From an uncultured Flavobacteriales bacterium (GTDB taxonomy: Bacteria; Bacteroidota; Bacteroidia; CAIKAF01): a stretch of DNA of 64,000 nucleotides. The notes under the pieces are model-generated. The model did no database searches and had not been told where the DNA came from. It saw only the letters and a program-made list of their open reading frames with translations. Shown in pieces: positions 6,062-10,867 of the stretch. A program made the translations under genes and the position numbers. Within the stretch, counting starts at the first letter, position 1; the number at the start of each line of letters is the position of its first letter. The stretch covers positions 24,987 to 88,986 of the forward strand of contig CAIKAF010000007.1 of the NCBI GenBank assembly GCA_903825395.1, given 5' to 3'.

Positions 6062-6694
6062 ATGCCCGTAGAAAAGTTATTTCGAGATGACCCATTTCCC
6101 TCATTAAGTCAGGCTCGCCACGACGGATTGCTCGCAATGGGAGGTTCGCTATCTCCTCAACGTCTTTCTACCGCTTACCGACTGGGTATTTTTCCTTGGT
6201 TTAGTAAAGGTTCTCCTATTTTGTGGTGGAGTCCAGACCCCAGATTTGTACTGTTCCCCAAGGAATTAAAGGTGTCTAAGTCCATGCGCCAATGTCAGCG
6301 CAAAGGGACCTTTAGGGTGACCTACAATACTGCATTTCAAGAGGTGATTCAACAATGCGCTCAAATTCCAAGGGCCGATCAAGACGGTACCTGGATTTTA
6401 CCTGAAATGCAGGAAGCCTACCTTCGGCTTTTCCAGCAAAATCAGGCCATGAGTGTTGAAGTTTGGGAGGGCGAAAACTTGGTGGGGGGTCTGTATGGAG
6501 TAAAGGTAGGTCGTGTTTTTTCTGGGGAAAGCATGTTCAGTAAGGCCAGCAATTCCTCAAAATTGGCCTTAATAGAATTGGTTCAAACCGGAGCATTCGA
6601 TTTGATTGATTGTCAAATCCATTCTGAACATTTAGCCAGCCTTGGAGCCCGTGAAATACCCCGTTCTGAATTTTTAAGCTACCTTCCATCCTAG
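6062..6694 (+). CDS. aat: Leucyl/phenylalanyl-tRNA--protein transferase
   Basis: GLLAMGGSLSPQRLSTAYRLGIFPWF...WWSPDPRFVL. Confidence 0.95.
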   Translation: MPVEKLFRDDPFPSLSQARHDGLLAMGGSLSPQRLSTAYRLGIFPWFSKGSPILWWSPDPRFVLFPKELKVSKSMRQCQRKGTFRVTYNTAFQEVIQQCAQIPRADQDGTWILPEMQEAYLRLFQQNQAMSVEVWEGENLVGGLYGVKVGRVFSGESMFSKASNSSKLALIELVQTGAFDLIDCQIHSEHLASLGAREIPRSEFLSYLPS

Positions 6695-6775
6695 GTCGCT
6701 TCCAAGCCAGCACACGAATTCTATGGATTGGCTAAAAGCTGTTGTTCAGTCCTTTGTAAATTCAACCCAAAGGGT

Positions 6776-6783
6776 TACTTTTG
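6776..6783 (+). promoter_or_regulatory. Bacteroidota-type promoter (-7 TACTTTTG, -33 TTTG at 6753) upstream of hppA
   Basis: TAnnTTTG match with TTTG 19 nt upstream, 35 nt before the ATG. Confidence 0.55.
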
Positions 6784-6818: not shown

Positions 6819-9584
6819 ATGAAGGATTTGATGATGTACATGATTCCTGCCCTAGGTTTGGTAGGTATTTTGGTGATGGCGATTAAATACGCCTGGGTTG
6901 CCAAGCAGGATGCTGGCGACGAAAACATGCAAAAGCTGGCTGGCTATATAGCCAAAGGAGCCATTGCTTTTTTACGTGCCGAATGGAAATTGCTGGGCTA
7001 TTTTGCTGTAATTGCAGCTGTGGTTCTTGCATGGTCTGGCACCATGACGGAAAACTCACACTGGGTAATTTCCATTTCTTTTTTAATTGGCGCCGTTTTT
7101 AGTGCCCTTGCTGGGTACATCGGAATGAAAGTGGCCACCATGGCCAATGTGCGTACAACTCAGGCAGCTCGGACCTCGTTGGCCAAAGCCTTGAATGTTT
7201 CCTTTACCGGCGGTGCTGTTATGGGGCTTGGAGTGGCCGGACTGGCCGTGTTGGGCTTAGGCAGCTTGTTTATTGTTTTTTATCAAATGTTTAGTGTAGG
7301 AACCGATGCCGCTTTTGATGCTCATAACATGGAAGTGGCCTTGGAAGTATTGGCTGGGTTTTCATTGGGTGCCGAGTCGATTGCCTTGTTTGCGCGCGTA
7401 GGTGGTGGTATTTATACCAAAGCAGCTGACGTTGGAGCTGATTTGGTTGGAAAAGTGGAAGCCGGAATTCCGGAAGACGATGTTCGAAACCCTGCTACCA
7501 TTGCAGATAATGTGGGTGATAATGTGGGAGATGTTGCGGGCATGGGAGCGGATTTGTTTGGTTCTTATGTGGCTACAATTCTTGCTACGATGGTTTTGGG
7601 TCGCGAGGTGTTGGTGGCCGATCAGGTGGGTGGACTTTCCCTGATTTTACTTCCCATGATCATTGCAGGAATGGGTTTGATTTTTTCTATTGTTGGAACA
7701 GTGTTTGTTCGAATTTCAAACGAAAATAGCTCCGTACAAAAGGCTCTAAACATGGGCAATTGGGCATCGATGATTTTCACTTTAATTGGCTCTTACTTTT
7801 TGATTAATTGGTTGGTTCCTAACGAAACATTGGTTTTGCGCGGCACTGAATTTACCAGAGATGGCATTTTTGGAGCCGTTCTGCTGGGCCTGATTGTGGG
7901 TGCTTTAATGAGCATGGTGACAGAATTCTACACAGCTATGGGCAAGCGACCTGTTATGTCTATTGTGCGTCAGTCCTCTACCGGCCATGCAACCAACATC
8001 ATTGGAGGTCTGGCTGTAGGAATGGAATCAACAGTGTTGCCCATTATTATTTTGGCTGCAGGTATTTTCGGAGCATTTGAGTTGGCTGGTTTATACGGAG
8101 TTGCTATCGCAGCAGCAGGAATGATGGCCACCACAGCCATGCAATTGGCTATTGATGCCTTCGGACCCATTGCCGATAATGCGGGTGGTATTGCTGAAAT
8201 GAGTGGTTTGCCAGCTGAAGTTCGCGAACGTACCGATAACCTAGATGCAGTTGGAAACACAACAGCCGCTTCGGGTAAAGGTTTTGCTATCGCCTCTGCT
8301 GCCCTGACATCTCTAGCTCTATTCGCTGCTTTTGTAGGTATAGCTGGCATCGATGCCATTGATATTTACAAGGCAAATGTACTCGCCGGATTGTTTGTAG
8401 GGGCTATGATTCCTTTTATCTTCTCTGCTCTTGCCATTGCTGCCGTTGGTCGTGCCGCCATGGATATGGTAAATGAAGTACGTAGGCAGTTCCGCGAAAT
8501 TCCAGGAATTATGGAATACAAAGCAGAACCAGAATACGAAAAGTGCGTTGAAATTTCTACTCGGGCGAGCTTGCGCGAGATGGTTGCTCCCGGCGCCATA
8601 GCTTTGCTCGTTCCCATTGTGGTTGGATTTATCTTTGGCCCTGAAGTGTTGGGTGGGCTTCTTGCCGGTGTTACCGTTTCGGGTGTTTTGATGGGAATGT
8701 TCCAGAACAATGCCGGCGGAGCTTGGGATAATGCCAAGAAAAGTTTTGAAAAAGGGGTTGAAATTAACGGAGAAACCTATTACAAAGGATCTGACCCGCA
8801 CAAGGCTGCTGTAACAGGCGACACAGTCGGCGATCCCTTCAAAGACACTTCTGGTCCTTCCATGAATATCCTTATCAAATTGATGTCTATCGTGGCTTTG
8901 ATTATCGCCCCCCACATTAAAGGCGTGGGTGGAGCTGGTTCTTCTTCCTCTTCCGTTCCTTCCTTGTCTTCTCTTGACCAGAAAATGAGTTACTCTATAG
9001 GTTTAGATATTTCTAAAAATGTCGCAGGGGCTGGTTTGCAATTGGATATCAAGGCCATGACAAAAGGCCTTGAGGATGGAATAAACCCAGATGCTGTTCC
9101 AATGTTGACCGAAGAAGAGATGGCGGCTGCATTTGAGGAATTTCAAGCCCAAATGATGGCGAAGCAGGCCCAACAATCCGAGGCAAGTGCTGCGGCTACT
9201 GTTGCCGAGGGTCAGGAATTTATGGCTGCCGAAAGCAAAAAGCCAGGAATGCAAAAAACGGCTTCAGGCATGTTATATGAAGTGAAGGTTATGGGTAAAG
9301 GCCCTAAACCAACCGCGACCGATGAAGTTTCTGTGAATTACACCGGTTCTTTGATTGATGGCACTGTATTCGACAGCAATGAGGGACGCGATCCCGCGTC
9401 TTTTCCATTGAATGGAGTTATTCCCGGCTGGACTGAAGGCTTGCAGCTAATGCCTGTAGGTTCTACATTCCGATTTATTATTCCTGCGGATTTGGCGTAT
9501 GGAAATACTCCGCCTCCCGGTTCTCCAATCCAACCCGGATCTGTATTGGTCTTCGAGGTAGAACTTTTAAATATCAATAAATAA
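6819..9584 (+). CDS. hppA: Membrane-bound (Na+/H+-translocating) pyrophosphatase fused to C-terminal FKBP-type peptidyl-prolyl cis-trans isomerase
   Basis: [35 protein letters not shown] and [10 protein letters not shown] motifs; HppA terminus [34 protein letters not shown], Ser-rich linker, then FKBP_N and FKBP domain ([18 protein letters not shown]...[26 protein letters not shown]). Confidence 0.95.
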
Positions 9585-9624: not shown

Positions 9625-10356
9625 ATGAAGAAGTTGTTGTTCCTTTCGGGTTTGTCCCTTATGTTTTTTGCCTGTTCAACATCCTCTTCAGGTGAAGCTG
9701 AAGTGAAGGATCTCAATTCCCTTGAGCTTAAGGTCTCCTATGCCGCAGGCTTGGATATGGGAGCAAACCTTAGAAATCTGGATTTTGGGGTAGATAAGAA
9801 TGCCTTGATTCAAGGCATCATTGATGGGCTCGACACCTCTCGTAAGCCTCTGTTAACTCGAGAAGAAATGGAGGCTGCATTTAATGAAATTCAAATGCAA
9901 ATGCAGGCGAAAAGCCAGAAAAAATCAGAAGAGGCCGCGGCGGGCAACGTTGCTAAGGGCGCTGCGTTTTTGGCAGAAGAGGCTAAAAAGCCAGGAATGC
10001 AAAAAACAGCCTCTGGAATGGTTTATGAAGTGTTGGTGATGGGCAAAGGGCCTAAACCCAGCGCTGAAAATACAGTTTCTGTAAACTATGAAGGAACCCT
10101 TATTGATGGTACTGTTTTCGACAGCAGCTTTGAGCGTGGCCAGCCGGCTACGTTCCCACTGAATGGAGTTATTCGCGGTTGGACTGAAGGCTTGCAGTTA
10201 ATGCCCGTTGGCTCTACTTTCCGATTTATTATTCCAGCAGATTTGGCCTATGGAACGAATCCTCCTCCCGGTTCTCCCATTCAACCCGGATCTACCCTTG
10301 TTTTTAAGGTGGAATTGCTGAACATTGAAAAATCGAATCCAGAACCAGCTCGATAA
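9625..10356 (+). CDS. FKBP-type peptidyl-prolyl cis-trans isomerase lipoprotein (Mip/FkpA-like)
   Basis: Lipobox MFFAC; FKBP_N plus FKBP domain, highly similar to the HppA fusion domain. Confidence 0.95.
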   Translation: MKKLLFLSGLSLMFFACSTSSSGEAEVKDLNSLELKVSYAAGLDMGANLRNLDFGVDKNALIQGIIDGLDTSRKPLLTREEMEAAFNEIQMQMQAKSQKKSEEAAAGNVAKGAAFLAEEAKKPGMQKTASGMVYEVLVMGKGPKPSAENTVSVNYEGTLIDGTVFDSSFERGQPATFPLNGVIRGWTEGLQLMPVGSTFRFIIPADLAYGTNPPPGSPIQPGSTLVFKVELLNIEKSNPEPAR

Positions 10357-10375: not shown

Positions 10376-10867
10376 ATGCGGTACACGTTTTTCTCTGGAC
10401 TTATTATTCTTAGTATTGTAGCTTGTCAGCCTAAACCAGCCAACGAAGCTCCTACTGTTACTTATGAATATTTTGGAGACAGCATTTCCATAGAATCGGC
10501 GGCAACAGATGCAGCAGTTTTAGACAGCCTATCGGTTCGCGATTCCATTGAGCTTACGATGGTTTCTACCATTCAGGCCGTATGTCAGGCCAAAGGCTGC
10601 TGGATGGATGTGCAATTGGGGAATAACCTCATGACCGTTAAATTCTGGGATTATGGATTTTTCGTGCCTCTTGATGCCGCCGGAAATAAAGTGTATATGA
10701 AGGGTTGGGCCAAAAAAACAGAGAATTCTGTAGAATGGCTCAAACACAAAGCGCAGGATGCCGGGGCACCACAAGATTCCATCGACCTAATTACCGAGCC
10801 TACCTACGGGTATGATTTTATGGCAACGGGGGTGGTTATTGAAAAGCCAATCGCTGAAAAGAAGTAA
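10376..10867 (+). CDS. DUF4920-like lipoprotein
   Basis: Start moved to the ATG at 10376 (MRYTFFSGLIILSIVAC lipobox); VCQAKGCWMDV motif. Confidence 0.75.
   Translation: MRYTFFSGLIILSIVACQPKPANEAPTVTYEYFGDSISIESAATDAAVLDSLSVRDSIELTMVSTIQAVCQAKGCWMDVQLGNNLMTVKFWDYGFFVPLDAAGNKVYMKGWAKKTENSVEWLKHKAQDAGAPQDSIDLITEPTYGYDFMATGVVIEKPIAEKK

Follow-up and report, generated by a model that had tools for sequence, protein, structure and literature searches.

On the + strand of the window (the whole 64,000-nucleotide stretch of DNA analysed here), a single gene encodes a full membrane pyrophosphatase (mPPase) and a full Mip/FkpA-type FKBP in one polypeptide chain. The frame extends over 921 codons (6819..9584; 921 aa) with 0 internal stops, as the earlier note had described, and Pfam places the entire H_PPase model (PF03030; model positions 1-645 of 645, 880 bits) on residues 14-696. 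The remainder of the architecture read in that note likewise stands: the HppA part reaches its family's normal ending and continues through a Ser-rich linker into an FKBP_N domain and a complete FKBP_C domain, both with scores above the Pfam cut-off (Table 1). We consider it likely that the product is one bifunctional inner-membrane protein, a pump with a tethered periplasmic FKBP foldase, in which tethering would bring a benefit and the dimers of the two parts may pair.

Table 1. Parts of the fusion gene and adjacent features (window positions), and homologous pump loci bearing other C-terminal cargo
Feature	Position or loci	Strand	Evidence
HppA part, residues 1-700	6819..8918	+	PF03030 E 1e-264; PDB relatives 5gpj/4a01/4av3; AlphaFold model vs mPPase structures E 7e-34
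TMH16, residues 659-700	8793..8918	+	Helix H659-700 in model (low confidence here); conserved catalytic-side residues
Ser/Gly-rich linker, residues 701-720	8919..8978	+	Varies among congeners, with indels of whole codons
FKBP_N dimerisation domain, residues 721-822	8979..9284	+	PF01346 E 3.9e-20
FKBP_C prolyl isomerase domain, residues 830-917	9306..9569	+	PF00254 E 1.5e-24; FKBP12 pocket mapping
Separate FKBP_N-FKBP_C lipoprotein, signal MKKLLFLSGLSLMFFAC, next gene	9625..10356	+	Nearest relative (64%) of the fused domain within the genome
Bacteroidota-type promoter-like site TTTG-N19-TACTTTTG, upstream of fusion gene	6753..6783	+	Consensus match only
YceI-tailed mPPases, many Bacteroidota families	L011, L013, L021, L027, L028, L057, L081, L109, L141, L149, L165, L175-L178, L204-L211		
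Cys-rich, partly His-rich tails after SGPSMN	L008-L010, L014, L017, L018, L020, L043, L060, L070, L092, L105, L148, L170		
OmpA peptidoglycan-binding-like tails, three Bacteroidota family codes	L025, L181, L192, L193, L197-L199, L201		

The window belongs to a draft genome (2.6 Mb in 33 contigs, 100% complete, with 1 copy of hppA), a circumstance that would allow two genes to have been joined by an assembly or sequencing artefact. The same full-length fusion, again devoid of stops, is present in three of the five other genomes of the genus, at 97% (G003), 92% (G005; record VGMT01000009.1, L032, a Bacteroidetes MAG), and 90% (G001) identity, and the linkers of these congeners differ in length by whole codons, in frame. 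Nei-Gojobori comparisons of congener pairs gave dN/dS values of ~0.02 for the pump part. For the FKBP part the closest pair gave 0.18 and one other pair ~0.05, synonymous sites being near saturation in most of the rest; purifying selection acts on both halves. An assembly error, missed stop, or frameshift at the junction, against which the earlier note had cautioned, is ruled out by the frames of these separate genomes, the codon-wise indels, and the signature of selection, and an artefact of any kind is thus vanishingly improbable. The fusion is not universal in the genus: in two congeners (G002 and G004) the pump is unfused and ends in a 35-residue His-containing tail, and the G002 pump has different gene neighbours, with no FKBP beside it. 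As two of the six congeners lack the fusion and a free FKBP is encoded next door in the window genome, the tether is evidently not essential in this genus. The fusion gene lies downstream of aat, encoding a leucyl/phenylalanyl-tRNA protein transferase (6062-6694), and the free FKBP gene is followed by a DUF4920 lipoprotein-like gene (10379-10867), in an order that recurs in G005 (L218).

Membrane pyrophosphatases have 16 helices, form homodimers, and are usually portrayed as pumps of a single domain (PMC6882861). The pump half of the fusion matches the solved mPPases 5gpj, 4a01, and 4av3, and it carries the conserved catalytic motifs of the family, whose residues are invariant or nearly so across the alignment. 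By inferred numbering, E186 corresponds to position 5.43, no Glu occupies 6.53 or 6.57, and Ala is found at the K+-dependence site. In the scheme that classifies mPPases by the position of this Glu, which includes the Flavobacterium johnsoniae K+-dependent H+-PPase with Glu at 5.43 (PMC6882861), these shared features would assign the pump to the F. johnsoniae-like class; the window pump bears an FKBP in addition. Neither a family I (PF00719) nor a family II (DHHA2) soluble pyrophosphatase was detected in the window genome, so that the main pyrophosphatase of the cell is probably this pump, which would be under strong constraint.

The last 220 residues of the fusion give full-length matches to Mip and FkpA (1fd9 and 1q6h; E 1e-47 and 3e-36), with which they share the FKBP_N plus FKBP_C arrangement. 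All nine residues of the FKBP12 core pocket (Y26, F36, D37, V55, I56, W59, Y82, I91, and F99) are identical in the fused domain, which makes prolyl isomerase (PPIase) activity likely; R42, F46, and E54 of FKBP12 differ or are absent, and F46 and E54 are likewise not conserved in the free FKBP encoded by the next gene. Mip/FkpA FKBPs have their own signal peptide, and the free relatives of the fused domain start with lipoprotein or Sec-like signals, whereas the fused FKBP is joined to a pump and lacks such a signal, both in the fused frame and after the internal starts examined. An AlphaFold2 model was built from 26 sequences, leaving out free FKBPs, which had aligned onto the pump; with a mean pLDDT of 63 and unreliable placement of the parts relative to each other, it was used for fold identity and not for domain arrangement. 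The model shows approximately 16 long helices, followed by another long helix spanning 765-806 and by a domain with the FKBP fold, and Foldseek matched it to Mip/FkpA structures (E 2e-11 and 4e-10) as well as to mPPases (Table 1). It is plausible that the pairing of FKBP_N domains is matched to the putative dimer symmetry of the pump.

A tree of 34 FKBP rows bears on where these domains came from. The four fused domains of the genus pair with the genus' downstream lipoprotein FKBP (support 92/87), and the enclosing set (98/96) also takes in the third FKBP of the genus; on the favoured explanation, the fused FKBP of this genus descends from the family of lipoprotein FKBPs that the adjacent gene still represents. 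A survey of 395 genomes of the class and 395 of the phylum recovered a pump-FKBP fusion only in the window's genus, and viral contigs yielded one remote FKBP. A second fusion group occurs in other Bacteroidota MAGs (L033 and the pair L034/L035, 68-70% identical overall), and its fused FKBPs cluster with other FKBPs from the same genomes. In L034 the hppA-FKBP gene is broken up, with an open frame of 534 aa, and in the near-identical L035 it is intact, reflecting either sequencing error or decay. A single origin of all HppA-FKBP fusions was rejected, as one clade of fused FKBPs is incompatible with the data (AU p 1.4e-7), and the pump halves of the two groups occupy separate positions in the HppA tree. 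The HppA-FKBP fusion, although rare, thus arose at least twice independently. Two free FKBPs lie in tandem after the fusion gene of L033 and one after that of the window, which suggests fusion with a neighbouring FKBP gene as the likely route. Such tandem genes directly downstream of hppA would also ease read-through by loss of a stop, and free paralogues remain, both as expected of a neutral chance fusion whose FKBP half is redundant; that account is nonetheless quite improbable, as four species retain the fusion with an intact pocket and a dN/dS far below 1, and as its formation would have required loss of the signal peptide in addition to that of the stop and took place more than once.

The position of the fused domain is predicted from the topology of the mPPase family. 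Pyrophosphate is hydrolysed on the cytosolic side, and the catalytic D/K cluster (residues 666-676) lies at the start of TMH16; with its inner end in that cluster the helix should run outward and leave the tail in the periplasm, upholding the placement that had been predicted for the FKBP. No strict Bacteroidota-type promoter is present at the HppA-FKBP junction, the sole strict match between 6000 and 11000 being the one that precedes hppA, and a loose match occurs at 8974. A separate promoter and start for the FKBP half was accordingly rejected, given also that no signal peptide follows the internal starts, and translation of this half independently of the pump is a possible reading at most. 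The pump would instead serve as both export signal and anchor for the FKBP. A variation on this theme is that the pump acts solely as a delivery device, the FKBP being inserted with it and then cut free in the linker to work in the periplasm. The linker, rich in Ser and presumably flexible, is less conserved than any other part of the protein, and FKBP_N-type FKBPs are normally free or lipid-anchored; yet the linkers of the four congeners have no evident conserved cleavage motif and those of the independent L033 and L035 fusions are different, making release by cleavage unlikely.

The FKBP is one of several kinds of cargo found at this site. Pump tails were classified in ~200 homologous loci, a sample enriched for long frames and close relatives, so that the following counts are not frequencies: 40 distinct tails, spanning at least 14 family codes, carry YceI (PF04264, E down to 1e-35), 49 are Cys-rich (≥ 6 Cys) without a Pfam family, 8 from three family codes carry OmpA (PF00691; E 4e-16 in L025), and 7 carry FKBP. 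Short charged tails also occur, and one pump (L078) has a tail of ~140 aa with no clear family and a weak Dodecin match below the cut-off. The Cys-rich tails listed in Table 1, with a repeat unit like CDMDKCxxMTKEECAxxCDSxxCxxEQKAxCMxMYdadGK, may bind metal, and an OmpA-like tail would attach the pump to the cell wall. Even within the window's family, another genus (G009, G013, and G014) has YceI at this site on a more distant pump (66% identity). At least 19 changes of tail type map onto a tree of 106 pumps, a rough figure as this quick tree has weak forks. The YceI-, OmpA-, and Cys-rich-tailed enzymes thus share with the window protein an extra domain in the same place on a homologous pump, although their cargo is unrelated to FKBP, and the domains joined to these pumps otherwise occur in the periplasm, in agreement with the predicted topology. 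We regard it as reasonably probable that the mPPase C-terminus in Bacteroidota is a general evolutionary docking site, to which FKBP, YceI, OmpA, and Cys-rich domains have been fused repeatedly and independently, the pump providing a shared inner-membrane anchor for periplasmic functions.

This breadth of cargo also informs whether the FKBP might act on the pump itself, regulating it, stabilising it, or helping to assemble its dimer or exit channel. FKBP_N dimerises and mPPases are homodimers (PMC6882861), such that pairing would hold the dimer together, and a regulatory role has been suggested for mPPase C-terminal extensions (PMC11210485). However, structurally unrelated domains or a short tail occupy the same site in other pumps, and close congeners lack the domain altogether; the pump evidently does not need the FKBP, and an action on the pump is distinctly doubtful. 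The same pattern qualifies the reading offered in the earlier note: its architecture and predicted placement hold, and a pump-tethered periplasmic foldase is still the best interpretation, but the FKBP fusion is one case of a general pattern and does not point to a special link between folding and pumping.

A precedent for added cargo exists in Betaproteobacteria, where the mPPase of Paucibacter sp. KCTC 42545 (WP_058719013.1) and its relatives carry a C-terminal OmpA-like domain (PMC11210485, 2024). Both this enzyme and the window protein (residues 721-917) have an extra soluble domain after TMH16, but the Paucibacter tail is OmpA-like, of ~110 residues, on a pump called K+-insensitive, whereas the window domain is an FKBP. 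That report was the only published mPPase with an added C-terminal domain found, and neither a survey of other cargo nor a description of FKBP or YceI on mPPases was encountered, in a literature search that mainly covered papers outside subscription journals. Both parts are ordinary members of their families; the joining of the two, and the recurrent swapping of cargo at the pump's C-terminus, seem not to have been described in the literature searched.

In the bifunctional protein favoured here, the 16-helix pump would hydrolyse pyrophosphate in the cytosol and export cations, and its outward C-terminus would bear the Mip/FkpA-type FKBP on a flexible Ser-rich linker. The FKBP would act as a prolyl isomerase and chaperone in the periplasm beside the inner membrane, with the pump standing in for the signal peptide and lipid anchor of the free FKBP, and the fusion would represent one instance of the recurrent gain of soluble periplasmic domains by the Bacteroidota mPPase C-terminus. 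Such fusions are naturally occurring proteins on which the two activities can be assayed within a single chain, and they lend independent evolutionary support to an outward mPPase C-terminus. They also call for caution in annotation, as Bacteroidota proteins labelled 'HppA' often contain a further domain that the name does not announce. The presence of FKBP at this site in one lineage, and of YceI, OmpA, or Cys-rich domains in many more, suggests that mPPases have an additional role as membrane anchors.
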